Source: a virus. Taken from it: 38,962 bases of DNA. Of the stretch, positions 16,957-38,121 are shown piece after piece. The stretch is from positions 1-38,962 of the IMG/VR virus record IMGVR_UViG_3300034073_003727; one strand, written 5' to 3'. Each line of letters opens with the position of its first letter. The first letter of the stretch is position 1. The notes under the pieces were generated by a model. The model had not been told where the DNA came from. It did not search any database and worked only from the letters and a program-made list of their open reading frames with translations. The translations under genes were made by a program, and so were the position numbers.

Positions 16957-19900
16957 TTATACATAAGATTGTTTATTAAATCCACCATATCGATTTGCTT
17001 TTTGTATTTGATTGTCAGCAACTTTTGCGATATTACGGGCTAAATTTTGACTGAATATCATTTCATTTGAATCGTAATTATTTCCAGATTGACCTAATAC
17101 AAACTGGCCAGATTTATTATAACTACCAACATTAGCGACAATATTAATATTGCTGTTATTTGTATTGTTAGTATTATTTGTGGTGCTATTGCTGCCGCCA
17201 CCTTGCATCCTAGAGCTATTTGCAGAAATATATTTATTATTTGCGGCATTTGATATAGCATTCATTCCGCCAGACATATATCTAGGAACATTATCAGAAA
17301 TACGAGATCCATATGGAATAAAACCACCAGATTGATAACCAATCAAACCTCCTCTTTGATTTTTGATTACTAAATCTTCAGGACTACCAAACTCTGAAAC
17401 AGATCTTTCTAAAACCCTACTACCGATTTTACTGGTGCTTTGAACAGCCTTTCCAGCTGTTCCGGCGGCTGATGATAAATTTCCCAAGCCTACGCCTAGA
17501 AACGCAGCACCAGCTGCTCCAACAATACTGCTTATTAATTGAGCACGTTTTTGTTTTGCTTGAAATTCTTTATTAACTCTTTCTTTTTCTGCTTCAATTG
17601 ATTTTTGACGCATATTTTTAAAGAAAGGATCGTTTTCAAAAGCGTACGCACTATAATCATCTAAACTTACAGGTCTAGTGTCCATACCGCTGCCAATTAA
17701 ATTACCTGAATAATTTAATTCATCTCCGATTAAAGATTGTTGAGCGGCAAAACCAAAACCGCCACCACTTTGAAAACGAGGTGCCATCCCATAATTCAAA
17801 CCATCTAAATTATTAACACCAATTGCCGCGACCGCTTCTCTATTTAATACATATTCGCCATCTTCTAACAATGCTAAATTTCTATCTCCAGTTCTGTTGC
17901 CGGGTATATATGTACCATTTTCGGCACGAATAATACCGCCTCTTTGTTTACCAACGATTCCTCCGTTTTGAAATAAACCGCTACCAATAGAACCAATAGC
18001 TCTATACATAGCTGCTCTCATAACTTCTTGCATCAACATTTGACCAAAATTAATCACCATATCTTGCAATGCATCGCCAATTGATTTTGTTCCTTTTGCG
18101 ACTTCCATTAAAGCATTTGTCATACCATCTGCAAAAGCAGAAGGCGCTTTTTCTGCTAAATCCAATATAATTTGATCTGATTGTTTAGCCATATTACCAA
18201 AACCCTTTTCAAGTCTACCCATTATTGTTGTGTTTAATCTTTCGTTTTCTTGTTTAATTCTAATATCTTCATCTACAGTTTGTCTTTGTATGCCTAATAT
18301 TTTTTCTCTTGTTTCGTATTGTTTTTTCAATAATTCAACTTGAGATTCTAATACTGGATTTCCTTTTGCTAATTCAGAAAGCTGAGTGAAATCAAGTACT
18401 GGTGCATTTGCACCTAATGCGCCAGCTGAACCAAGTTTTGATTGATTTTTTTGAGCGGCTAAGTAAGCTTGATATTTTCTATAAGTACCTTTACCATATA
18501 ATGTATCAATATCATTTTCAGCGGATGGACCCATTTCATTAGAAGCAAATTGTATTTTTTGCATTTTTTCGCTTCCTACTCCACCTAATTCTTCAGCTAA
18601 TCTATCAGTTATCCATTCATTCATTACCTGTGTCAATTTTTCCAATGCATTTGTATTTTGAATTTCAGCAGCAAGTTGTAATTGAGCTTGAGCCATTTCT
18701 GTGGCTAAATTTTGATCTTCCATTCTTCTTTGTTCCTCAAGAACTTTATTTTCTATACCTATTCTTCTTTCCAAACTTTCCCTAACACCCATTCCATATT
18801 CTTGACGAGGATCTTCTAATCCTCTTCTTAAAGCGGCAATATATGATTCAGAATTAGCTTTTGCAATGTCGATGGCGAAACCTAAATTTTTAGCAGTAAT
18901 TTCTGCTTCTTTTATTCTAGTAAAATTTTCTTTTTGAATTCTATTACTCTCAACTGAATATTGTAATTCAGCTGCAATTTTTAATCTATTTAAATCTTGT
19001 TTTATTTGCAATTCTTTTTCTGCGTTTTGTTGTTCTAATTCTAAAGAAGTTTTATTTCTTTCTCTTTCAGCAATTGCTCTAGCTATTTCATCTTTTGCAA
19101 ATTGATTTTTAGCAAATTCACTTGCTTTTAACGCGTTATTTAAAGCGTCTAATATAAGTGTAAATTCATTAACAATTTTTTCTCTTTGTTCTTCTGGAGC
19201 CATAGCAGCTTTAGCTTCCATAGCAGCTGTAGTTGCATTTCTAAATCCTTCCACGTCTTGTGATTTTGTTAAATCTAAAGTGGCTGGTAAACCTAATGTA
19301 TTAGATTTTATTAAATCATTAAATTGTTTTGTTCTTTCTGTTTGAATTTCTTTTGCTACATTTCCAACATTTATTTCATTATATTTTCCGCTTTGAAGTT
19401 GATTGAATACTTTATCTCTAAAAAATTGAGCATTTTCTTGAGAAGTTAACATGGAATCTTTAAATACTTTTGTTAACTCTTCAGCGTTTCTTTGTAAGAA
19501 TTTAGATTTTTCTTTATCTTGTTGAATTTGAAATGCAGCATAATCATCATTTAATTTAACTAAAGAATCTTCAGCTTTTGTTTTAGCGGCAATGTTTGCG
19601 TATTCAAATTTTTTGATTTCTGGCAAATTACTCATCATATAAGACGATATTTGCTCATTTAATGAAGAAGTGAAGTCAGAAATTATAGATTGTATTCTTT
19701 GTGCGCTAGACTGTTTTTCAAAACTCATTGCCGCTTCAAATGCGGCTTGCTCAAGAGAATCTTGAATTTTTTGAAAAATAGAAGCTACGCTTTCTGTAGC
19801 TTTATTTCTGTAGTTTTGAATATATTTAGATAAATCTAACCTCTGAGCATCTTTATCTAAAATATCAAGAACTTCAAGCGGTTTATCTAATAATGACTCA

Positions 19901-22900
19901 TAATAAGTCTGTACAGCAGAAGCTCTATCTTTTTCATCTTGTGGAACCATTTTTTCTGCAAAAGCCATTAAAGATTTATTATATGCTTTTTCATATTCTC
20001 CAGAAGCGCTAGTTGGCCTCATGCCTCTTTCATAACCAAGTCCTGCTGTTCTAGCATTTTCTCTTGCAACAGAACCTGCTTTCTGAGCTTCTTTTATAGC
20101 ATCTCTAACTTGTTTAGAATAAGTTTTAGCATCCGCTCCAAATCCCATAGCTAAAGCGCCAGCTCTTTCTTTTGATGTAAGAGTTTTTGGTCCATACATT
20201 CCAGTTCTTTTTGCGCTTTGTTTAGCAACTTCAGTAGTGTATTGTTGCAATTTTTTAATCATTTCAGTAACATCACCACCAGCAGCAATAAATGCATCTT
20301 GTAATTTAACGTCTTTAATTTGACTGAAATTATCTGATAGTTTTTTAGTAGCATTTTCTATTTCTGTAGAAGAAGCTCCTTTTGCAATCATATCTGTTAA
20401 GTTCTTTTGAGCATCAATATAAGATGAAGCCGATTGAATACTTTCTTGAGCTTTTTGAGTTTGTTTTTCATTTAATTGCATCAACTCATCTGCTGATAAT
20501 GTGGCAGCGCTTAATGAACTCGTAAACGCAACTAAACCACCAACCGCTGCGCCAACAGCCCCACCTAAACCTGGAAATATCATATTTCCTATTGATGCGC
20601 CTGTGCTTATAGATGTTAAACCAGTACTTAAAAATGATTTACCCATTCTTTCAGTTGCGCTTAAATCAGTTCTTTCTTTATTGCCAAAATAAGCTGATTC
20701 AAATTGAGCAGCAATCATTGGCACAGCAAACATTGCAGTATTAGTAAATTTATCTAATCTTTCTTGCGAAGGCAAACTTTTCATCATTTTTTGATAAAAA
20801 GACTTTACAGAATTACTTAAGCCTCCTGATGAAGCAGCAACCATACTATTCGTTTTTGCAAAAGTAGATTGTATATTATTTTTTAATGCTTTATAACCAT
20901 TCTCAATCGGATCAAGTAAATAATACGCTGGATACGCTTGAATACTTAAAAATGTATTTCTAATATCATTTAAAGTTTTAGCGGCCAAAGCGTTTATTTC
21001 AGCTTCTAGTCTAGCTGGATCAAAACCACTTTGTGTAGCAGATGGTTGAGGTTGATTTCTCGCTCTTTGCCTTTGTTGCCTTCTCATACCAGCAAAATTA
21101 GGTACAAATCCTTTGTTCATCAAACCAGCATCTTTTTGATTTTTTATAGAATCAGATAAAGCATTATTTAATCCACCATGATCAGAAATAGCTGCTGCAA
21201 AATTAGGCTGAGAACTATTACGTATAAATGGAAAAGGTCCGCTTTTTGTATCTAATACAGCTTTATTGCCGCTCATATTAGATTCAAGATTCATTACTTG
21301 ATTTATATAATCAGCAGCAAAATTAGGTATAAAACCTTTAGATTTAGCAATATTATCTAAATTAGATTTCTTAAATTGATAAGCATGTTGAAGAGACCAA
21401 ATGGGATCGTTTATAGAAGGCCATGTAGATTTATTTTTCAAAAAATCTTTTTCTGGATTCATTGAAAATTCATTACTACCTCCATTAAAAGCTGGGTTTA
21501 AATTCCAATATTTCATCGGCAATTTTTTATTTATTACATCAGCTGTTCTTAATTTTCTATAACCATCCCAAATTCTAATAGCTTTATCGGTAACTGTTAA
21601 TCTATCGGATGTTAACCATGCTCCCTTTTTTGACACTTCAGCTAAGACTGAATCATATAAAGGAACTCCAAATCCAGCACCAGTGATACTTACTTGAGAA
21701 GTTCCAACCGAATATAAATCTCCAGCTCCATCCACAGGATAAGCAGAAACTGTACCGAATAATTTTTTATCTCCGACTTTCGCATCTCTATTATAAAAAG
21801 ATGAAATTGAATTTTTGCCAGCAATTGTATTAATCTTTAAATCAGCAAAATTTGGTATAAAACCTTTACTTAGACCATTTGGATAAATATCTTCTAAATG
21901 TACAGAACTTGTTTGCTTTTCATTAACACCCATTGTTTGAAAAGCAAATCGTAATTTATTTAAATCATTAGATGTATAACTTTGGTATCCGCCAAGTCTT
22001 TTCCCACCAACCATTTTTCCACGTTCTTTAATTAAAGTTTTAATTAATTCTTGAGGAACAAATGAACCAAATATAGGAATTCTATCAGCTATTTTTTCAC
22101 CACCTTTATCTAATTTATCTAAAATAGGCAACAATAAACCTTTATGTGTAAAAGACAATTTAGGAGAATTTAAATCCGAATAAAATTTAGGAGCCAAGGC
22201 GTCTTTTTCCAAATCATAAGAAATCTTTTTACTTCCTAGATTTTTAAAAGCATTATATGATTCATTTTTTGCAGCAAGAATTTCTTTTTTAACGTTTTCA
22301 TCTAATGGTTTGCCATTATACCTTAAACTTGCATTTACTAATTCGTTGTATTTTACATATAATTCATTCAATTTAAAAATTGAATTTATAAATTCTGTTT
22401 TCTTTAATGGATCTATATTATTTTTTGATAAACTAGCCGCTTGTTTTTTTCTAATAAATGGTAACAAAGTTTTTAAATTAACAATCAGATTTGGTATTCT
22501 AGGGCCAACAACTTCACCGGCATTGATTTTTTTCACTTGGCCGGATTCGAATAATGATTTTAATTCATACAAAGGATTACCAAATTCACTGCTCATAAAT
22601 CCAACATTTAAAACGCCTGATGAATCTATGCCTAATTGCGATCCCGTTTTTCTAGCAATCGCATCACCTAATTCGCTTTCCTCATCATCATAAAAATTAG
22701 GTATAAAACCTCTACTTGCTTGTATAATTTGTTCTATCCCTCTTTTTACTTCTTTATCAGCATTATAGAATAAATATTCTGGTCTACCTCCAATACTACG
22801 TACAATATTATCAATATTTTCTAAAGGCTTTTCACTATGCCACATTTCAATTAATTCGTTTTTAGCTTGTGTAAATTTTGTTCTTAATGTGGCATCAGGC

Positions 22901-25884
22901 GTAGTATCACCAGACTTCATTTCAATAACAGGACCAGTCAAATTATCTTCTAATGCATCAATTCTGGTATTACCTGGAGCCCCATGAAATCTTTTACCAC
23001 CTTTTTCATAATTTGATGCAAAAACAATATTATTTGTTGCAAACATTTGTTTTGCTTTTTCAAGCGCCAAACGTTCGAAATTTTTTGCGAATGGATTTGA
23101 TTGAGAAGTTGTTGTATTACTAGGTAATGTACCTATACCAGCAATACCTATTCTTTTAAATCCCGAACTCAATACTCTTTGTAATACTCCTTGTTTTCTT
23201 TCTTGTATAGCTTCGCTAGAAGGTCTCCAACCAGCTGCTCTAGCTTGAGCTTCAGTAAAAGGCGCGTCTTGTTCTTTCAATTGCCCGGCTGTAATTCTAT
23301 CTACGACAGATCTAATTTTTCTATTATTTAATTTTTTATATTGTCCAAAACCTATATAATAATCAGTAGGCAGTTCTGCTGCTGCAAAATTTGGAATATA
23401 ACCAGAAGAATATGCTTCTCTAGAACCAAAATAAGTAAGAGAATCAAATAAATCTTTATTTTTTAAAACGGTTTTTCCTGGTTCTTGTTTAGATTTATAA
23501 ATAGATTTTTTATCTTGAGCTTTTTTAAATGACCTGAAAAAGACTTCTTTTTGATATTCATATTGTCTAGCTTTAGGATGGAAAGGAAATTCAGATCCGT
23601 CTCTAAAAACAGTATAATCACCCCAAATTCCTTCTCTACTTTTTTTAGCTTTCTCTGTCAAAGTTAATAAACTTGTATCTCTAGTATATCTGAAATCAGG
23701 GACAGCTAAACCTTGTTGAACTAAAGTTCTTGAAATATCAGGATCATTAAAAATAGATCTAAAGTAAGCAGATTTCCCCTTAACAATATTATTATTTAAA
23801 ATATTTACTCCTGCCGGATTTAAATATTTATTTGCTAATAAATTTTTAGCTTCATTATAAAATTTTTGATTATTTTCAGGCGCATCTACGCTAGCTAAAC
23901 GATAATCAATTGAATTTGGATTAATAGGTAGAGCCTCAATAGTATCTCCATCTTTAACTTCTTTAATGGATGATAATATTTTTTCTGCAAAATTAGGTAT
24001 AAATCCATTATTCATGTATGGATCAACACCTGTTCTATTTATTGAATTACGTCTATGAGTTCTTCCAGCTTGTGAATTTGCAGGAGGATTAATAAATGGT
24101 TGAGCAAAACCCGGCATATATTTCACCTGTTCAGCAGTATTCATTACTCCACCAACAGGAGATTCAACAACTCTACCCGGCACATAACCACCTGCAATTG
24201 CGCCGATAGTTTCTTGTAGTTTTGCTTCTTTTGGAATATATCCACCGCTTCTTGTAACTCTTAAACCTCCTGAGCCTTTAACAGTTACCCCTTGTGCAGA
24301 CAATGCTGGAGCCAAAGCAGCAACTAATGCTTGTTGTCTTTGATATTCTGCTGTTTGTTGTCTTGCTAACTGTAATAATAACTGAGCTTGTGCAGCTTGA
24401 TTACCCATTTGACCTGCTAAAGCCTGTGAAATAGGACCCTGTTGCTGCATGATTTGCAAAATAGCTTGTTCAATATTTTTTCTGTTTTGTGTTTCTGTTG
24501 TTATACCAACAATCTGAGGCAATGCTTGAGAAAGATACGTGAAAGAATTTTGTATTAATTTAAACAATACAAAAAACGCACCAATTGCTCCGGGACCAGC
24601 CAATACATTTCGTATACCTTTTAATAAACCATTTGCAAAAGTAGAGCCTACACCTTCACCTTCAAGAATCTCATTTAAATTCTCAAACAACGACTTAAAA
24701 GATTCTGCTGTATATTTAGCTAAAGGTTCAAATGTCACTTTACCAACATTATTGGCGAACTGTTGAGCAACTGTGCTAGTTTGGCTTAATAAAGCATCTA
24801 ATGTTTGATTTAATTGAGCAGCAGCAATTTGAGCTTCATTTGTTGCAGTTGTTCCTTTTTGCAAAGCACCAGCATAAGCACCTTGCTTATTATTTAAATC
24901 TCCTATGATTGCTTTTAATATGTTAACCTGATAAACACCTGCAACTTGTTCAGATAGTTGTGCTCTTTGTGAATCAGCTAAATTATTGTAAGCGCCTGCA
25001 AAATTTTGTAATATTTGTACGGCGGGTAAAATATTACCTTGAATATCGCGAACTCCGATATTAAAAGCTTCTAACTGATCAAGTGTTTCAGTACGCTGCA
25101 ATCTTGTAAAAATTGTTTTTAATGCGTTACCAATAACAGCACCACCACGCGCAGTTTTTTCCTGTGCAGCTGTAACGAGCGCATTTAATTGATCAATATT
25201 AACACCAGCTTCTTGCGCCGCTAAACCTGTTCTAGAAAGAGCTTCAGCTAAATCACCGGCACTTACAGCATAGCTTTGTTCGACAGCGACTAATTTATTT
25301 AAAACTTGTGTTGTTGTTATTCCTGTAGCTTGAAAACCATTTACAGTAGCTGTCAATGCTTCAATAGCATTATTGACATTCATGCCAGCTAATCTGGCCA
25401 ACGTCATTGCATCAGTCGTTCTTTGTAAAACTTCTTCAGCCTTAACACCTTGACGTGAAAATTCTAGAGCAGCTTTAGCTGCATCACCAAAAGAACTCGC
25501 AGTCTGTTTACTAACATTAAATAGATCTGTGCTAAATTTTTGTAATTCTTTAGTAGTTAATCCGAAAACACGATTAATATCAGCTAAATTCTTTTCTACT
25601 TCAATGGTAACTTCAGCGATACTTCTGAAACTACGTAAAACACCACCTAATACAGCAGTTGACGCACCGAATGCAATAACACGCGCATTGGAAGCAGCTA
25701 ATGCAGCCTCGAAATCCTTAACATCACCTGTAATTCTACCAAGAGGTTGAGAAAAAGCTCTTGCATTTACTTGTAGATTGACCTGATTTTGATTTGCAAA
25801 TCGTTGATTGTAAGCTTGTACACCGGCTTGAATTGATTGAACCAAGGCGGCTTGATTTGCTGCTACATTGATTTGGACTGCCAT
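16957..25884 (-). CDS. Tape measure protein with embedded enzymatic cargo domains
   Basis: At 2975 residues this is the longest gene. Residues about 85-330 match the TP901/PhageMin tape measure domain (helical, Ala/Gln-rich, ending NALKTIFTRLQR). Residues 425-460 include a hydrophobic helix, and about 1755-1795 is a Gly/Ala-rich hydrophobic stretch. Residues about 1600-2570 are mostly helical and coiled-coil-like. Residues about 2555-2645 resemble the lambda gpH C-terminus. The end has Gly-rich D/N-IP motifs and an Asn/Thr tract. Between residues 627 and 1598 are six G-[FY]-[IV]-P-N-F motifs flanking nuclease-like and GNAT-like domains, listed separately. Tape measures set tail length, line the tail tube and are ejected with the DNA. 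The ATG follows an ATAAAT leader. Confidence 0.9.
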   Translation of the reverse strand: MAVQINVAANQAALVQSIQAGVQAYNQRFANQNQVNLQVNARAFSQPLGRITGDVKDFEAALAASNARVIAFGASTAVLGGVLRSFRSIAEVTIEVEKNLADINRVFGLTTKELQKFSTDLFNVSKQTASSFGDAAKAALEFSRQGVKAEEVLQRTTDAMTLARLAGMNVNNAIEALTATVNGFQATGITTTQVLNKLVAVEQSYAVSAGDLAEALSRTGLAAQEAGVNIDQLNALVTAAQEKTARGGAVIGNALKTIFTRLQRTETLDQLEAFNIGVRDIQGNILPAVQILQNFAGAYNNLADSQRAQLSEQVAGVYQVNILKAIIGDLNNKQGAYAGALQKGTTATNEAQIAAAQLNQTLDALLSQTSTVAQQFANNVGKVTFEPLAKYTAESFKSLFENLNEILEGEGVGSTFANGLLKGIRNVLAGPGAIGAFFVLFKLIQNSFTYLSQALPQIVGITTETQNRKNIEQAILQIMQQQGPISQALAGQMGNQAAQAQLLLQLARQQTAEYQRQQALVAALAPALSAQGVTVKGSGGLRVTRSGGYIPKEAKLQETIGAIAGGYVPGRVVESPVGGVMNTAEQVKYMPGFAQPFINPPANSQAGRTHRRNSINRTGVDPYMNNGFIPNFAEKILSSIKEVKDGDTIEALPINPNSIDYRLASVDAPENNQKFYNEAKNLLANKYLNPAGVNILNNNIVKGKSAYFRSIFNDPDISRTLVQQGLAVPDFRYTRDTSLLTLTEKAKKSREGIWGDYTVFRDGSEFPFHPKARQYEYQKEVFFRSFKKAQDKKSIYKSKQEPGKTVLKNKDLFDSLTYFGSREAYSSGYIPNFAAAELPTDYYIGFGQYKKLNNRKIRSVVDRITAGQLKEQDAPFTEAQARAAGWRPSSEAIQERKQGVLQRVLSSGFKRIGIAGIGTLPSNTTTSQSNPFAKNFERLALEKAKQMFATNNIVFASNYEKGGKRFHGAPGNTRIDALEDNLTGPVIEMKSGDTTPDATLRTKFTQAKNELIEMWHSEKPLENIDNIVRSIGGRPEYLFYNADKEVKRGIEQIIQASRGFIPNFYDDEESELGDAIARKTGSQLGIDSSGVLNVGFMSSEFGNPLYELKSLFESGQVKKINAGEVVGPRIPNLIVNLKTLLPFIRKKQAASLSKNNIDPLKKTEFINSIFKLNELYVKYNELVNASLRYNGKPLDENVKKEILAAKNESYNAFKNLGSKKISYDLEKDALAPKFYSDLNSPKLSFTHKGLLLPILDKLDKGGEKIADRIPIFGSFVPQELIKTLIKERGKMVGGKRLGGYQSYTSNDLNKLRFAFQTMGVNEKQTSSVHLEDIYPNGLSKGFIPNFADLKINTIAGKNSISSFYNRDAKVGDKKLFGTVSAYPVDGAGDLYSVGTSQVSITGAGFGVPLYDSVLAEVSKKGAWLTSDRLTVTDKAIRIWDGYRKLRTADVINKKLPMKYWNLNPAFNGGSNEFSMNPEKDFLKNKSTWPSINDPIWSLQHAYQFKKSNLDNIAKSKGFIPNFAADYINQVMNLESNMSGNKAVLDTKSGPFPFIRNSSQPNFAAAISDHGGLNNALSDSIKNQKDAGLMNKGFVPNFAGMRRQQRQRARNQPQPSATQSGFDPARLEAEINALAAKTLNDIRNTFLSIQAYPAYYLLDPIENGYKALKNNIQSTFAKTNSMVAASSGGLSNSVKSFYQKMMKSLPSQERLDKFTNTAMFAVPMIAAQFESAYFGNKERTDLSATERMGKSFLSTGLTSISTGASIGNMIFPGLGGAVGAAVGGLVAFTSSLSAATLSADELMQLNEKQTQKAQESIQSASSYIDAQKNLTDMIAKGASSTEIENATKKLSDNFSQIKDVKLQDAFIAAGGDVTEMIKKLQQYTTEVAKQSAKRTGMYGPKTLTSKERAGALAMGFGADAKTYSKQVRDAIKEAQKAGSVARENARTAGLGYERGMRPTSASGEYEKAYNKSLMAFAEKMVPQDEKDRASAVQTYYESLLDKPLEVLDILDKDAQRLDLSKYIQNYRNKATESVASIFQKIQDSLEQAAFEAAMSFEKQSSAQRIQSIISDFTSSLNEQISSYMMSNLPEIKKFEYANIAAKTKAEDSLVKLNDDYAAFQIQQDKEKSKFLQRNAEELTKVFKDSMLTSQENAQFFRDKVFNQLQSGKYNEINVGNVAKEIQTERTKQFNDLIKSNTLGLPATLDLTKSQDVEGFRNATTAAMEAKAAMAPEEQREKIVNEFTLILDALNNALKASEFAKNQFAKDEIARAIAERERNKTSLELEQQNAEKELQIKQDLNRLKIAAELQYSVESNRIQKENFTRIKEAEITAKNLGFAIDIAKANSESYIAALRRGLEDPRQEYGMGVRESLERRIGIENKVLEEQRRMEDQNLATEMAQAQLQLAAEIQNTNALEKLTQVMNEWITDRLAEELGGVGSEKMQKIQFASNEMGPSAENDIDTLYGKGTYRKYQAYLAAQKNQSKLGSAGALGANAPVLDFTQLSELAKGNPVLESQVELLKKQYETREKILGIQRQTVDEDIRIKQENERLNTTIMGRLEKGFGNMAKQSDQIILDLAEKAPSAFADGMTNALMEVAKGTKSIGDALQDMVINFGQMLMQEVMRAAMYRAIGSIGSGLFQNGGIVGKQRGGIIRAENGTYIPGNRTGDRNLALLEDGEYVLNREAVAAIGVNNLDGLNYGMAPRFQSGGGFGFAAQQSLIGDELNYSGNLIGSGMDTRPVSLDDYSAYAFENDPFFKNMRQKSIEAEKERVNKEFQAKQKRAQLISSIVGAAGAAFLGVGLGNLSSAAGTAGKAVQSTSKIGSRVLERSVSEFGSPEDLVIKNQRGGLIGYQSGGFIPYGSRISDNVPRYMSGGMNAISNAANNKYISANSSRMQGGGSNSTTNNTNNTNNSNINIVANVGSYNKSGQFVLGQSGNNYDSNEMIFSQNLARNIAKVADNQIQKANRYGGFNKQSYV
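21385..21843 (-). other. GNAT-like domain inside the tape measure
   Basis: Residues about 1348-1500 include a hydrophobic strand (DLYSVGTSQVSI), then GAGFGVPLYDSVLAEVSKKG (1402-1421), then AWLTSDRLTVTDKAIRIWD (1422-1440). A Gly-rich turn and helix followed by L.SD...T..A..IW resembles the acetyl-CoA-binding half of phage GNAT-fold proteins. The canonical Q/R-x-x-G-x-G/A loop is imperfect, so this is a tentative fold call. Confidence 0.42.
22717..23079 (-). other. PD-(D/E)XK nuclease-like domain inside the tape measure
   Basis: Residues about 936-1056 begin with a helix (FERLALEKAKQMF). Asp976 follows in NTRIDALED, then Glu988-Met-Lys990 in PVIEMKSG, then a helix with Gln1006 (TKFTQAKNELIEMW). 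The order helix, D, ExK, Q-containing helix is the core pattern of PD-(D/E)XK nucleases. The strand EYLFYNAD at 1036-1043 could be the next core strand. Identification is by motif only. Confidence 0.6.
23590..23967 (-). other. Staphylococcal-nuclease-like (TNase) domain inside the tape measure
   Basis: Residues about 640-765 contain DGDTI at 645-649, then RLASVDAPE at 662-670, spaced as in the thermonuclease signature. LVQQGLA (721-727) and EKAKKSREGIW (744-754) fit the rest of the fold. By analogy with staphylococcal nuclease, Asp647, Asp667 and Glu670 would be calcium or catalytic residues and Arg662 matches Arg35. The second catalytic arginine (Arg87) has no clear counterpart; Lys704 or Arg709 are candidates. 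Activity is therefore uncertain. Confidence 0.75.
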
Positions 25885-31537: not shown

Positions 31538-32083
31538 TTAGATATAAACAGAACCAGATGTGTACAAATATCCATCTCCGGTAATAGTAAATTCGTTATT
31601 GCTTACGACTACTGAATAAACTCCAGTTTGTGATTCTACAGCGTTAGAAACAGTATAACTATCAGATGTTGCGCCGATTATTTCTATTCCATCTTTGTTC
31701 CATTGGTATGAAAAACTTCCTGTTGGGTACGATTCAACAGCACAACTAAATACATAATCGGCAACACCGGTATAAAGATTAAATTGAGGAGGCTGAGTAA
31801 ATTTTAAATAATGTCTCCAATCTAAACCAACTTTGCGCAATATAACATCTGAAAGATATTTATAATCTTGTTCATCTGTTTGATCGCACGGCCAATTTTG
31901 CCAGTCGTCACCGTCAATACGTACATATTGACCATCAAACGGTAAACCATTTGGATTAATCATTTCAACCCATAAACAAGGCCCACGAAGTGGACCCATA
32001 AAATCGAAATTTCCTAATATAGCTTTTAAACTTGCAACATTTTTTTCAGCTGTTGGCTGAGTTTCTATATAAACTGTCTCCAT
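31538..32083 (-). CDS. Virion protein with C-terminal Ig-like domain
   Basis: The product has 181 residues. Residues about 1-100 form a compact unknown domain with Trp-rich motifs (LWVEMINPNG and DGDDWQNWPCDQTDEQDYKY). Residues about 103-181 show an Ig-like fold: CAVESYPTGSFSYQWNKDG, an IIGATSDSYTVSN strand pair, then GVYSVVVSN. The cysteine, the W about 14 residues later and the G-x-Y-x-V-x-V strand are the usual landmarks. Ig-like domains on phage virion proteins are linked to weak carbohydrate or surface binding. An AT-rich gap of 41 bases with a TATATAGTGTAAT stretch precedes the start. Confidence 0.7.
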   Translation of the reverse strand: METVYIETQPTAEKNVASLKAILGNFDFMGPLRGPCLWVEMINPNGLPFDGQYVRIDGDDWQNWPCDQTDEQDYKYLSDVILRKVGLDWRHYLKFTQPPQFNLYTGVADYVFSCAVESYPTGSFSYQWNKDGIEIIGATSDSYTVSNAVESQTGVYSVVVSNNEFTITGDGYLYTSGSVYI

Positions 32084-32124: not shown

Positions 32125-32838
32125 TTAAATACCAAATCTACCGCGAGTAGCATTGAAGTTTTGAAGAACTTCTGAAGAAGATAATGCTTTATTATATAAT
32201 CGCGCTATACTCACACTACCATCAACAGAGTAATTTGTGCCAGATCCACTAAATAAAAAATAATCAGCAGTATTATAAGTTCTTAAAGTTTTCGTCAATG
32301 TTGTTGAAACACCAAGTTGCGATCCATTATAATACATTAAAGCTATATTTTGAGCTTCATTAACAACAAGAACCAAATGAACAAATGTCTGAACGTTTGA
32401 CGCTATTGTATAAGCAGTATTTCCTGAAGCATTTCCCACATATTGAACAGTATTATCACTATACCATATAACTGGATTTATAATTGATAATCCTGATTGC
32501 TGAAAACCAGTATGATATCCCCTTCTACCAAACATGTATCCATTAGATGCACCCGGAACAGCGCCTAATGGTTTAAACCAACATTCATATGTATGGTTAT
32601 TACCGTCATTTGTTAAATTTTGCAAATAAGAATTAGAGCCGCCAAACCAAATATATTGGTTCAAAGAAGTCGCTGTAAAAGCATTATTATCATATGTAAC
32701 TAAGCTTGTATCTGTAGAGATTTTTGATGCTCCTGATAAATCATTCCAAGCTGTACCAGAACCTGAATAACTTTTTCTATCTGCCGCATCTAAATGTAAT
32801 ACTAATCCATCTCTTACTATTTTAGGTCCATATTGCAT
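32125..32838 (-). CDS. LamG-family (concanavalin-like) virion protein 1
   Basis: The product has 237 residues. It opens with the conserved GPKIVRDGLVLHLDAADRKS motif followed by YSGSGTAWNDLSG, and ends IARLYNKALSSSEVLQNFNA then RGRFGI. This beginning and end bracket a variable core of beta strands (such as TYECWFKP and FVHLVLVVNE), as in laminin-G/concanavalin-like lectin domains of phage adhesins. It stands alone, with no anchor or collagen part. It is one of four full-length members in tandem, probably binding surface glycans. It begins 6 bases after the end of member 2. Confidence 0.75.
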   Translation of the reverse strand: MQYGPKIVRDGLVLHLDAADRKSYSGSGTAWNDLSGASKISTDTSLVTYDNNAFTATSLNQYIWFGGSNSYLQNLTNDGNNHTYECWFKPLGAVPGASNGYMFGRRGYHTGFQQSGLSIINPVIWYSDNTVQYVGNASGNTAYTIASNVQTFVHLVLVVNEAQNIALMYYNGSQLGVSTTLTKTLRTYNTADYFLFSGSGTNYSVDGSVSIARLYNKALSSSEVLQNFNATRGRFGI

Positions 32839-32844
32839 AAAAAA

Positions 32845-33543
32845 TTAAATATTAAAACGTTTGCGAACAGCATTAAAATTTTGAGATATTTCAGAAGTAG
32901 ACAATGCTCTATTATACATTCTTACTATAGCTATATTTCCTGACCAATATAAATTAGCTCCAGCTGTATTTCTTCCTATGTTTAAATTTACACTAGCATT
33001 AGAAACGGAACCAGATGGAGCAGTTGTAGAGCCCGCTAAAACAGTATTTTTATAAGCCCTCATAGAAACTCCTCTTTCTATTAAGCCTACAACTTGAAAC
33101 CATTCTCCAACGCTATAACCAGCAGCACTCACAAAAGATCTAGCAGCAGTGGGATTTATAGTAAATGTTAAACCAGAATCAGCGCCAAAAAAAGCAAATC
33201 CAGCACTTCCGACAGCGTCGCTATCTCCTCCTTTACCTAATAATCTTAAATTTGTAGTCGCATTAGTAGAACGAGTTGCCCAGATTTCAATTGTAAAATT
33301 TCCAGTTCCAAAATTAATAGAACTACCATTACCACAATCTACATAATCATTTGAAGCATCTAAATTAAAATACCCCCCGTTAGAATTAGAAAAAGTTGGG
33401 CTACCACTTATTGTGCCATTATTTGCATTTGTAGTTAAATCGTTCCAAAACGTTCCACTCCCTAAATAACTTTTTCTATCCGCAGCGTCTAAGCATAAAA
33501 TTAATCCATCTCTTACTATTTTTGGTCCATTAATTCCTGCCAT
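32845..33543 (-). CDS. LamG-family virion protein 2
   Basis: The product has 232 residues. It shares the family's ends with its neighbours: NGPKIVRDGLILCLDAADRK, then SYLGSGTFWNDL, and at the C-terminus IVRMYNRALSTSEISQNFNA then RKRFNI. Its core differs: IEIWATRSTNATTNLRLLGK and FQVVGLIERGVSMRAYKN are strand-like and typical of LamG. The first 31 residues and the last four (RFNI) are closest to the deletion relic at 34,245. It starts 20 bases after the end of member 3, with a TATATAGTGTAATATA stretch in that gap. Confidence 0.75.
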   Translation of the reverse strand: MAGINGPKIVRDGLILCLDAADRKSYLGSGTFWNDLTTNANNGTISGSPTFSNSNGGYFNLDASNDYVDCGNGSSINFGTGNFTIEIWATRSTNATTNLRLLGKGGDSDAVGSAGFAFFGADSGLTFTINPTAARSFVSAAGYSVGEWFQVVGLIERGVSMRAYKNTVLAGSTTAPSGSVSNASVNLNIGRNTAGANLYWSGNIAIVRMYNRALSTSEISQNFNAVRKRFNI

Positions 33544-33563
33544 AAAATATATTATATATTACA

Positions 33564-34238
33564 CTATATACCAAAACGCCCACGTAAAGTATTAAAGTTT
33601 TGATCAAGTTCCGATGTCGATAAAACTCTATTGTAAGACGATACGTTTGCGATAAGACCTCTACATGGTCTAGGGGTATTTAAAACGCAAGATCCATTTC
33701 CAAGTACCCCTTGAGCAGCGATAGCAGTATTATAACCTACTGTCACTGAATTAGTGATGCTATTATTTAAAATAATTGTCAATGTTGTTCCATCATAAGT
33801 TGACACTACATTAAACCAAGTATTTAATGCTGGCGCTGTAACAGTAGCCGAAGGGCTTCTACCTAAATGAACTACGTTCAAATTTGTCGAACTAGTATTT
33901 ATTAAAAATCCTGTACTTGTTGCATTATCTGCTCTAGTAGACATAAAAGCATTATCAGCTGTGCTAGATCTTTGAGCCCACAAAGAGACAGTTCTTGGAC
34001 TATCTGCTCCAATCAAATAATTGAATAGAACACCTTGAGGCTGCGTTGCTGCTGTAAAAGATAAGGCTCCTCCATTTATAGAAGAAAAAGTAGCTGCTGT
34101 TATAGTTCCATTTTGAGATGTTCCTGATAATTCAGACCAAACAGTAGCTCCAGAACCTGATAAACTTTTTCGATCTGCTCCATCAACATAAAATATTAAT
34201 CCATTTCTTACTATTTTTGGGCCTCTTTGTGTTGCCAT
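33564..34238 (-). CDS. LamG-family virion protein 3
   Basis: The product has 224 residues. It starts with RGPKIVRNGLIFYVDGADRK, followed by SLSGSGATVWSELSG, and ends IANVSSYNRVLSTSELDQNF then RGRFGI. The middle (RTVSLWAQRSSTADNAFMST, then FNVVSTYDGTTLTIILNN) has the beta-strand rhythm of a LamG sandwich. The start lies six bases beyond the end of the internally deleted relic, which opens the possibility that relic and gene are read in succession. Confidence 0.75.
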   Translation of the reverse strand: MATQRGPKIVRNGLIFYVDGADRKSLSGSGATVWSELSGTSQNGTITAATFSSINGGALSFTAATQPQGVLFNYLIGADSPRTVSLWAQRSSTADNAFMSTRADNATSTGFLINTSSTNLNVVHLGRSPSATVTAPALNTWFNVVSTYDGTTLTIILNNSITNSVTVGYNTAIAAQGVLGNGSCVLNTPRPCRGLIANVSSYNRVLSTSELDQNFNTLRGRFGI

Positions 34239-34244
34239 AAATTT

Positions 34245-34355
34245 TTATATATTAAAACGAACAGTTCCGCTGCTTAAATAGCTTTTTCTATCGGCGGCAT
34301 CTAAACACAATACCAAACCATCAGTTATAATTTTTGGACCTCTATGAAGCGCCAT
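34245..34355 (-). pseudogene. Collapsed LamG gene: 36-codon remnant with both ends kept
   Basis: A short complete frame begins at the ATG at 34353-34355 and ends with TAA at 34245-34247. Its first 31 residues carry the LamG-family N-terminus (RGPKIITDGLVLCLDAADRK, then SYLSSGT). After one extra Val it runs straight into RFNI and the stop, the exact C-terminal end of LamG member 2. The whole core of about 190 residues is missing. Either an internal deletion removed it, or the remnant is an empty slot from which a cassette was lost. A functional peptide cannot be excluded. Confidence 0.75.
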
Positions 34356-34360
34356 AAGTT

Positions 34361-34630
34361 TTAATTAATTACAAAAGGTTTTGTCCATTCACTTGTTGCA
34401 AGAATTTCTATAATTTGATCATAATTGTATGGACCTTCTGCGGTTTTTAAATTGTTTATAAATTTAGGTTTTTTATCAAACCATTTTATAAATGTCTTTG
34501 TGCCGTCAAGACTTTTACGTAATGTTTCTGGAGAGTCTTCATAGACTTCATCGAAATCTATTAAATTAATTTCTGAAACATTGAAGATTAAATAATTTCG
34601 CGCTTTATAATCTGGTGAATTTGGCTTCAT
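34361..34630 (-). CDS. Small conserved-type protein between LamG genes, unknown function
   Basis: This 89-residue soluble protein has no signal peptide. Its features are NYLIFNVSEINLIDFDEVYE, SPETLRKSLDGTKTFIKWFD, then GPYNYDQIIEILATSEWTKP. I recall short proteins of this type (FNVSE..LIDF..V.E.S..T.R.S.DGT.TF.KW, then EGPY...I..IL.T.EWT) beside tail fibre genes in marine phages, but their function is not known to me. Fibre assembly or capping is conceivable. It starts 5 bases after member 4, and the relic follows its stop by 5 bases. Confidence 0.6.
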   Translation of the reverse strand: MKPNSPDYKARNYLIFNVSEINLIDFDEVYEDSPETLRKSLDGTKTFIKWFDKKPKFINNLKTAEGPYNYDQIIEILATSEWTKPFVIN

Positions 34631-34635
34631 ATTAA

Positions 34636-35367
34636 TTATAATCCGAATCTTGTTTTAGTAGCATTGTAATTTTGTAAAACTTCAGTTGCAGTTAATGCTC
34701 TATTATAAATTTTAGTTGAATATATTCTTCCATTCCAAGTATTATGATCACCACCAGAAGTACCAGAATCTCCTAGTTTCAAATAAAGATGTGAAATAAA
34801 TCTTATCGCTCCTGATAACGCAGATGTTGCTCTTTCAACACCGTTTAAATAAACACGGATTGTTGATTGATCATAAGTACCAACTACATATTGATTTGTA
34901 GAATAGTTAAAATAATTTGTTGCGGTTGCAGTACCCGTAGTACCGCTTGAGTTTTGCAAAGCAAACCTAAGATTAATGTTTCCTCCACCGGCATCAACAG
35001 ATAAAACAGGACCAAATGCTGCACCGCTAGTTGGATCTCCAATAAATACTATTGCTCTATTTCCTAAAAAGTAATTACTATAAACCCAAGCGGCTATTGT
35101 AATACCGGAGGTAGAATAAATATTTCCATCTGTGTTTACTGGCCCCACAAGTGCATAATCATCCGTAGCGTCAAAAGTAAATCCACCTCCTGAAGTTGAA
35201 GTCCAAACAGTGCCGTTATATAATGTTAAATTTTTGCCTCTTCCACTTACATCTGACCAAGTAGATGAACCGTCTCTAGGATAAGACCTCAATTGAGATG
35301 CATCCCAATATTCCAATAATCCATTTGTTACTATTTTTATATTACTATCTGTTGCTCCTCTATACAT
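34636..35367 (-). CDS. LamG-family virion protein 4
   Basis: The product has 243 residues and is the most divergent member. It starts with NIKIVTNGLLEYWDASQLRS, followed by YPRDGSSTWSDVSGRGKNL, and ends STKIYNRALTATEVLQNYNA then KTRFGL. The core includes ITIAAWVYSNYFLGNRAIVF and YVVGTYDQSTIRVYLNGVER, typical of a LamG sandwich. It lies 6 bases after the end of the collagen-like fibre gene, so it may act as a lectin partner of that fibre. Confidence 0.75.
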   Translation of the reverse strand: MYRGATDSNIKIVTNGLLEYWDASQLRSYPRDGSSTWSDVSGRGKNLTLYNGTVWTSTSGGGFTFDATDDYALVGPVNTDGNIYSTSGITIAAWVYSNYFLGNRAIVFIGDPTSGAAFGPVLSVDAGGGNINLRFALQNSSGTTGTATATNYFNYSTNQYVVGTYDQSTIRVYLNGVERATSALSGAIRFISHLYLKLGDSGTSGGDHNTWNGRIYSTKIYNRALTATEVLQNYNATKTRFGL

Positions 35368-35373
35368 ATAATA

Positions 35374-38121
35374 TTATGCGCTTAAATTACCGAATAAATA
35401 CCATTCATCTGTTGCCACTTTAACTAAACTTGCAACACCATAACGGGCATTAATTTTAGTCCAGTCGTTTGCTGTTCTTAAAGTTACACCAGCAGAACCA
35501 GTTATTGTTGTAACTCCTGATCCATATTGAACAATATCAATTTTTGTTCCTGTCTTAAATGCGACACTAGAGTTAAGTGGCACTGTTCCTGTATTAGCTG
35601 TCGCGACATTCATTTCAACAATTTTACCAGCGTCACCTAATACTAAAGTATAATTACTTGTTTGTCTATTGAAAGAGACATAATCAAGCATACCTACAAC
35701 ATTAGTTGGAGCAATTATTTCTACTTTAGCATTAGATGTTGGTGAGCTTGTTCCTATACCAACCCTATTTCCAGTAATTATAAAATCACCGCTACCATAT
35801 TGACCCATTGTAACAGTTGAATCAGCAAAAGCTTCAAATACAGGTAAACCTGCTATTGTATTTACAGACATTAAAGATGAAGTCAAATCATCATCAATAG
35901 AGAACAATTCTCCTCCAGTACCATGTATTTCCAACGGAGTCGCTGAACCAGTGTTTCCAGTAAAATTAATTCCAATCTGACCGCTCAAGTACATCAATCT
36001 TGTGCTAGCATTGAATTCATAATTTGTTTCAGCAATTAATGTTGTGCCAGCAGCGCCATCTCTTGTTACGATGCCATTATTTGGTCCACTTAAAGTAACG
36101 CTACTACCACCACCAGCAGGTGCAACACCGCTTGTTAAATTTCCTGTTGCATCAATATATAAAATAGCAGCACCAGTTCCAGAAGCAAGACCACTAAGTG
36201 CAACAGGACCTGATGTATGTAATTTAGCAGCAGGACTACTTGTACCTATACCTACATTACCATTTAAATTAATTCTTACTCTCTCGGTATTATTTGTCCC
36301 TAATACTAAATCGTCGTAATATTCATTTGTAATTTCTAGACTATTTCCTCCAGACGCATAACCCATTCTACCAACAACCAGCCCTCCATCTTGTTTTAAA
36401 ATAATTCTTGCGTTATCTGTTTCAGTTACATTATCGGTATCGGCTTCAATAGTTAATATTGTTGGTCCTGTTGAACTTAAATATAATATAGAAGATGGGC
36501 TTGTCGTACCTATACCAACATTACCATTTACATACAATACAGATCCATTAAAAGTCAAATTGCTTTCTACAGTAGCATTTGGCGCAGATCCATTTAATGT
36601 AATTACGCCATTATCTGTTGCGCCGGATAATGTGAGACTACCGCTAGTACCGCTGCTACCGCCGGTTCCACTTGTTCCTGAAGTCCCTGATGAACCGCTG
36701 CTTCCGCTTGTGCCAGAACTACCGCTTGTACCGGAAGTACCACTTGTGCCAGAAGTACCACTTGTTCCTGAAGTTCCCGATGAACCGCTGCTTCCGCTTG
36801 TACCAGAACTACCGCTTGTACCGGAAGTACCACTTGTGCCAGAAGTACCACTTGTTCCTGAAGTTCCTGATGAACCGCTGCTTCCGCTTGTGCCAGAACT
36901 ACCGCTTGTACCGGAAGTACCACTTGTACCAGAAGTACCGCTTGTTCCTGAAGTCCCTGATGAACCGCTGCTTCCGCTTGTACCAGAACTACCGCTTGTA
37001 CCGGAAGTACCACTTGTACCAGAAGTACCACTTGTTCCTGAAGTTCCCGATGAACCGCTGCTTCCACTTGTGCCAGAAGCACCACTTGCACCAGAAGTAC
37101 CACTTGTTCCTGAAGTTCCCGATGAACCGCTGCTTCCGCTTGTACCAGAACTACCGCTTGTACCGGAAGTACCACTTGTACCAGAAGTACCACTTGTTCC
37201 TGAAGTTCCCGATGAACCGCTGCTTCCGCTTGTTCCTGAAGTCCCTGATGAACCGCTGCTTCCACTTGTGCCAGAAGCACCACTTGCACCAGAAGTACCA
37301 CTTGTTCCTGAAGTTCCCGATGAACCGCTGCTTCCGCTTGTTCCTGAAGTCCCTGATGAACCGCTGCTTCCGCTTGTACCAGAACTACCGCTTGTACCGG
37401 AAGTACCACTTGTACCAGAAGTACCACTTGTTCCTGAAGTTCCCGATGAACCGCTGCTTCCACTTGTGCCAGAAGCACCACTTGCACCAGAAGTACCACT
37501 TGTTCCTGAAGTTCCTGATGAACCGCTGCTTCCGCTTGTACCAGAACTACCGCTTGTACCGGAAGTACCACTTGTGCCAGAACTACCACTTGTACCTGAA
37601 GTTCCTGATGAACCGCTGCTTCCGCTTGTACCAGATGATCCAGATGAACCATTGCTACCATCTATACCTGAAGTTCCCGATGAACCACTGCTTCCACTTG
37701 TGCCAGAACTACCACTTGTACCTGAAGTTCCTGATGAACCGCTGCTTCCGCTTGTACCAGATGATCCAGATGAACCATTGCTACCATCTATACCTGAAGT
37801 TCCCGATGAACCACTGGTTCCGCTTGTTCCAGAAGTACCACTTGTTCCTGAAGTACCTGTTGAACCACTGCTTCCACTTGATCCTGAAGTTCCGTTGATT
37901 CCTGAACTTCCGCTAGATCCATTAATACCACTAGATCCAGAACTGCCATTTATTCCGCTTGATCCTGAAGATCCTGTTGATCCACTTGATCCAGAACTTC
38001 CTGATGTACCATGAGATCCATCAATACCACTGATTCCGCTGGAGCCAGATGATCCATTAAGACCACTTGAACCTGACGTTCCGCTTGAACCGTTACTAAC
38101 TGAAAAAGTAGAATAACCCAT
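35374..38121 (-). CDS. Collagen-like tail fibre with VGIGTxSP adhesin domains
   Basis: The product has 915 residues. A 10-residue start (MGYSTFSVSN) leads into about 485 residues of Gly-X-Y repeats with X and Y mostly Ser or Thr, which should form a collagen-like trimeric stalk although Pro is almost absent. Residues about 495-820 carry three VGIGT(T/S)SP motifs typical of phage adhesins. The last 95 residues (from NYTLVLGDAGKIVEMNVATA to DEWYLFGNLSA) are a C-terminal beta domain common on phage fibres (LGDAGK...VPLNSSVAF..GT.I.I.QYG.G, then W.K...RYG). The DNA of the stalk is a minisatellite. Role: elongated receptor-binding fibre. Confidence 0.85.
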   Translation of the reverse strand: MGYSTFSVSNGSSGTSGSSGLNGSSGSSGISGIDGSHGTSGSSGSSGSTGSSGSSGINGSSGSSGINGSSGSSGINGTSGSSGSSGSTGTSGTSGTSGTSGTSGSSGTSGIDGSNGSSGSSGTSGSSGSSGTSGTSGSSGTSGSSGSSGTSGIDGSNGSSGSSGTSGSSGSSGTSGTSGSSGTSGTSGTSGSSGTSGSSGSSGTSGTSGTSGASGASGTSGSSGSSGTSGTSGTSGTSGTSGTSGSSGTSGSSGSSGTSGTSGSSGSSGTSGTSGTSGASGASGTSGSSGSSGTSGTSGSSGSSGTSGTSGTSGTSGTSGTSGSSGTSGSSGSSGTSGTSGTSGASGASGTSGSSGSSGTSGTSGTSGTSGTSGTSGSSGTSGSSGSSGTSGTSGTSGTSGTSGTSGSSGTSGSSGSSGTSGTSGTSGTSGTSGTSGSSGTSGSSGSSGTSGTSGTSGTSGTSGTSGSSGTSGSSGSSGTSGTSGTGGSSGTSGSLTLSGATDNGVITLNGSAPNATVESNLTFNGSVLYVNGNVGIGTTSPSSILYLSSTGPTILTIEADTDNVTETDNARIILKQDGGLVVGRMGYASGGNSLEITNEYYDDLVLGTNNTERVRINLNGNVGIGTSSPAAKLHTSGPVALSGLASGTGAAILYIDATGNLTSGVAPAGGGSSVTLSGPNNGIVTRDGAAGTTLIAETNYEFNASTRLMYLSGQIGINFTGNTGSATPLEIHGTGGELFSIDDDLTSSLMSVNTIAGLPVFEAFADSTVTMGQYGSGDFIITGNRVGIGTSSPTSNAKVEIIAPTNVVGMLDYVSFNRQTSNYTLVLGDAGKIVEMNVATANTGTVPLNSSVAFKTGTKIDIVQYGSGVTTITGSAGVTLRTANDWTKINARYGVASLVKVATDEWYLFGNLSA
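36640..38091 (-). repeat. Minisatellite encoding the Gly-Ser/Thr collagen-like stalk
   Basis: The coding strand repeats a 9-base Gly-X-Y unit, and higher-order copies of about 90 bases are visible. The 10-mer TGAACCGCTG on the plus strand recurs at 36691, 36781, 36871, 36961 and 37051, exactly 90 apart, then at steps of 72, 90 and 36. Local GC is clearly higher than in the rest of the window. The plus strand shows long false open frames rich in Pro, Glu, Val and Leu. Confidence 0.85.

Follow-up and report, generated by a model that had tools for sequence, protein, structure and literature searches.

A 36-codon LamG frame in a tandem phage gene array as a probable remnant of an internal deletion

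Is a frame that keeps only the two ends of a LamG gene an empty slot in a cassette array, or what is left of a gene that lost its core? We examined this question in a 38,962-bp IMG/VR virus contig, analyzed over its whole length and referred to here as the window. The contig holds a siphovirus-like tail module, in which one gene encodes a central tail fibre J-like protein and another the tape measure (PhageMin_Tail, E 1e-27). Within the tape-measure protein (16957-25884, 2975 aa) lie a staphylococcal-nuclease-like domain (PF00565, E 1.4e-8) and the motif G[FY][IV]PNF[AY], which is present six times. An array flanked on one side by a collagen-like fibre gene and on the other by an Ig-like virion gene runs, in order of transcription, from a LamG gene through p89 and the short frame (the stub) to three further full LamG genes, of the MATQRG, MAGING, and MQYG slot types. 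The four full genes scored 42.6 to 71.3 bits against PF13385 (cut-off, 27.6). The features are as follows.

35374..38121 (-), collagen-like fibre gene, 915 aa, SGT/SGS repeats, one array boundary
34636..35367 (-), full-length LamG gene, 243 aa, MYRGATDSN.. (PF13385, E 1.3e-19)
34361..34630 (-), p89, 89-aa conserved companion gene of LamG arrays (homologues in relatives)
34245..34355 (-), the stub, a 36-codon probable LamG remnant, N terminus joined to RFNI and a stop (family-end comparison)
34260..34262 (-), putative deletion junction in the codon of V32 (N-part ends ..GGAACTGTT, C-part starts CGTTTTAATATATAA)
33564..34238 (-), full-length LamG gene, slot type MATQRGPKI (PF13385, E 9.1e-11)
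32845..33543 (-), full-length LamG gene, slot type MAGINGPKI (PF13385, E 3.4e-19; AlphaFold lectin-type jelly roll)
32125..32838 (-), full-length LamG gene, slot type MQYGPKI (PF13385, E 5.4e-12)
31538..32083 (-), Ig-like virion protein gene (METVYIETQP..), opposite array boundary, conserved in relatives

Ends and junction of the stub

The stub translates as MALHRGPKIITDGLVLCLDAADRKSYLSSGTVRFNI*. Its first part is the N terminus of the LamG family and spans 31 or 32 residues, since V32 can also be read as the variable residue preceding the conserved Trp. Residues 1 to 32 or 4 to 32 were 53 to 76% identical to the N termini of three full LamG genes in the window, and positions 1 to 32 matched an HMM of the tandem phage LamG-array family (E 5.4e-15), whose N-terminal signature, GPKIVxDGLVLxLDAADxxSYxGSGT, is present. 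Of the family's C-terminal signature, YNRxLSxxEIxQNFNAxRGRF[GN]I, the stub has only the last four residues and the stop codon. The jelly-roll core of the family is missing, and no Pfam family matched, PF13385 included; having neither a LamG core nor a Pfam match, the stub is unlike the PF13385 ConA-like lectin domains of phage virion proteins. It is the only short one among the LamG-like frames of the window, with 39 codons from stop to stop against 226 to 245 in the four others.

The RFNI* tail is not a chance ending, because among the 4844 stop codons found outside the LamG genes in all frames of the window, none was preceded by RFNI and only 2 by RF[GNS][IL], and because no 15-mer outside these genes matched any of the four in-genome LamG ends with 0 to 1 mismatch. 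A single base separates the tail from that of the gene at 32845-33543. Further, the stub is separated from the next gene by 6 nt (TAA AAATTT ATG), the same spacing as at the 32845/32125 junction (TAA TTTTTT ATG). The N-terminal identities and the tail counts thus confirm the first-pass annotation in its description of a 36-codon frame that passes from the LamG N terminus to RFNI and a stop. That the reading frame is kept across the junction also held, though the odds of this by chance are 1 in 3.

The junction has no clear microhomology that would prove a mechanism. Its exact breakpoint is uncertain, as an IMG/VR scan for the intact parent gene with the peptide patterns ALHRGPKI and AADRKSYLSSGTV returned no match.

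The place behind p89 in related phages

An HMM search identified 23 p89 frames, the window's own and 22 in fetched loci, while a back-translated peptide search found no p89 relatives. The comparison with related phages that had been proposed for this locus was run, and full LamG genes occupy the place after p89 there: in the other viral contigs in which the gene directly after a p89 homologue is a LamG gene, it is full length everywhere. In the cultured Flavobacterium phage immuto, a comparable series of LamG genes likewise leads up to an adjacent p89 homologue. The immuto LamG homologues are annotated as structural proteins, and two of these (QQO92137.1 and QQO92138.1; LamG / Laminin_G_3, PF13385) carry the same N- and C-terminal signatures as the LamG family of the window. 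The p89 family itself (80 to 110 aa) is conserved alongside LamG arrays in phages that otherwise differ (immuto and S-SKS1). Our literature search found no paper on tandem phage LamG arrays and none on immuto virion proteins.

The nearest relatives are three contigs (L080, L081, and L082) whose connector protein is 99 to 100% identical to that of the window and which have two or three LamG genes matching those of the window in slot type and place. None of the three has the stub. A search for relatives in genome contigs found none. DNA similarity between the window and these relatives was ∼72 to 86% around the stop/start junctions and dropped away inside the cores. In same-slot pairs, identity at fourfold sites was 0.61 in the first 38 codons (n = 175) and 0.68 in the last 25 (n = 41), compared with 0.39 in the core (n = 333); the ends therefore share more recent ancestry than the cores. 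Many related contigs (L083, L084, L090, L091, L104, L110, and L112) stop in or close to the LamG region, no farther than ∼1.5 kb upstream of the connector gene, a pattern suggestive of assembly breaks where the locus is variable.

These relatives bear on the main rival to an internal deletion, in which the LamG gene at 34636, p89, and the N terminus of the next LamG gene were imported from another phage and fused by illegitimate joining to the tail of a gene already resident just upstream of MATQRG, so that the two parts of the stub derive from different LamG genes. L080, L081, and L082 do lack the p89 module here and have other genes upstream of their first LamG gene, and the 5' part of the stub is most similar to the slot-1 genes of L082 and L081 and to L005. 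However, the RFNI* tail would then require a resident LamG end right before MATQRG, which is absent in all three, and a single internal deletion is the simpler event. We consider such an import unlikely.

Core exchange and deletion in other contigs

Other contigs record several kinds of change in LamG genes. In L013 (1749-2945) and L030 (10705-11430), the same LamG gene has unrelated cores (frames of 407 and 250 codons), while 30-bp blocks are 83 to 100% identical upstream of the start codon and 93 to 100% identical from ∼90 bp before the stop onward. This is a clean core swap between related phages. Where L081 (7133-8666) has two LamG genes, L080 (3525-4295) has one, a chimera that resembles slot 1 of L081 over its first ∼30 bp and slot 2 over the remainder; this is an unequal crossover of one gene at the LamG 5' end, within the first ∼15 to 60 bp. 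Both pairs exhibit the core exchange with retained gene ends that characterizes a recombination cassette array.

Deletions were found as well. L046 and L047 (10706-10997) lack 390 bp of LamG core relative to the 97%-identical L044 (10706-11387). As in the stub, the core was lost and the ends were kept; unlike the stub, the deletion is out of frame, larger ends are retained, and the gene, near-complete in L044, was already frameshifted there. Compared with L034, L052 is missing 114 bp of a LamG core (overlap, 1 bp), and a neighboring gene is patched in L052; this case may be real or an assembly chimera. The first-pass proposal that LamG genes gain or lose cores but keep their ends is thus supported by the swap, the crossover, and the L046 deletion, but the empty slot that went with it is not, whether as a regular state of the array or as a slot with a function.

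Could the stub itself be an assembly artefact, with a full LamG gene in the true genome whose core was dropped by the assembler? In its favor are the metagenomic origin of the assembly, the variation of LamG arrays within populations, and the many related contigs that stop in or close to this part of the genome. Against it, a similar core deletion is present in two contigs (L046 and L047), and a k-mer collapse would have no obvious seed, because the stub region shares no exact word of at least 16 bases with the rest of the contig. An artefact is therefore very unlikely.

If empty slots were a regular state of the array, other stubs would be expected in relatives. Among 124 N-terminal matches from 50 whole viral records, the frames shorter than 200 codons were the stub (39 codons), a frame at a contig edge (28 codons), and two frames of L052 (87 and 61 codons), both of which are frame-broken genes of that one contig. 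No second two-ended stub was found among these matches or in 162 fetched loci searched by HMM. Scans of IMG/VR with degenerate patterns, which do match the stub of the window, gave no second stub either; the scanned collection excludes the window's own record and so offered no internal positive control. A cassette array with regular empty slots was accordingly not supported, as none of these searches turned up another stub in relatives. The reading of the stub as such a slot lacked support as well, given the absence of a second example in these searches, a frame kept at 1-in-3 odds, and an L046 deletion that is out of frame.

Fold and probable origin of the stub

To place the stub within the fold of a full gene, we used an AlphaFold model of gene 32845 (mean pLDDT, 84), whose first strand is at residues 14 to 19; more strands lie between 43 and 210, followed by a C-terminal helix at 216 to 230. 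Residues 1 to 31 contain only the strand at 14 to 19, and the last four lie at the end of the C-terminal helix or just past it. In the PDB, the model matches jelly rolls of the lectin type. Among them are domain 4 of an arabinanase (TM, 0.78 on target) and binding domains from sialidases and from clostridial proteins (12 to 17% identity). As judged from the model, this is a likeness of a widespread fold only, and a carbohydrate-binding role for the LamG genes of the array is presumed. With a single beta-strand and four terminal residues left, the stub, going by this model, cannot attain a LamG fold and is therefore probably non-functional.

Still, its N-terminal frame is undecayed and open, which would also be expected of a functional sequence. 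The two ends might be kept as a small protein or as a landing pad for recombination, to be refilled with a new core. Consistent with this, the frame is in phase, the 6-nt spacing to the next start recurs at one intact junction, and it is the gene ends that stay conserved around recombination events in the array. No second example was found in the loci, N-terminal matches, or pattern scans, however, and the C-terminal piece is only 15 bp, far below the ∼90-bp common end of the real swap. We give this possibility very little credence, and hardly more to an open cassette array in which the conserved LamG gene ends would serve as sites of exchange and the stub would be a viable empty slot, able to take up a new core through recombination at its ends.

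The lack of a second stub, a frame that chance could keep, and a C-terminal piece much shorter than the ends of a true swap instead lead us to read the stub as a deletion remnant. A single in-frame stub is within chance, because one-third of deletions keep the frame and the sister deletion did not. Most probably, then, the stub is what a recent internal deletion left of a full-length LamG gene behind p89. The ancestor would have been a full-length gene of the ConA-like jelly-roll type, within a tandem array of virion carbohydrate-binding genes. From the family length of 209 to 262 aa, compared with 36, a deletion of ∼0.5 to 0.7 kb (roughly 520 to 680 bp) may have joined codon 31/32 to the last four codons, presumably by illegitimate recombination with short or no homology and in frame by chance. 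The array would be a recombination hotspot in which conserved DNA at the gene ends lets neighboring or foreign LamG genes recombine; this would swap cores or whole genes and occasionally leave broken genes behind. Both ends of the stub, the array, and the core swaps and deletions in relatives are direct observations.

Domain shuffling has been described for phage receptor-binding and tail proteins (Nat Commun 2023, PMC10684548), in a main text that does not mention LamG or lectins. The likeness lies in recent exchange of variable parts beside conserved ones, in genes of the tail region with presumed roles in host recognition. Here, in contrast, exchange takes place among small single-domain genes lined up in tandem and keeps both gene ends. 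As a deletion remnant, the stub would capture an instance of gene loss within a tandem array of lectin-like virion genes. Together with the swaps and crossovers in sister contigs, it shows that such arrays diversify in uncultured phages by core exchange between conserved ends, and LamG arrays offer a tractable case of ongoing diversification in presumed host-recognition proteins.

The conserved intergenic motif TAGTGTAA precedes some genes and has 5 minus-strand sites in the window, some of them within genes. Directly ahead of two array genes, at 33566 and 32100 (-), stands ATAGTGTAAT, and relatives carry similar words in the corresponding intergenic places; it is possibly a regulatory motif.
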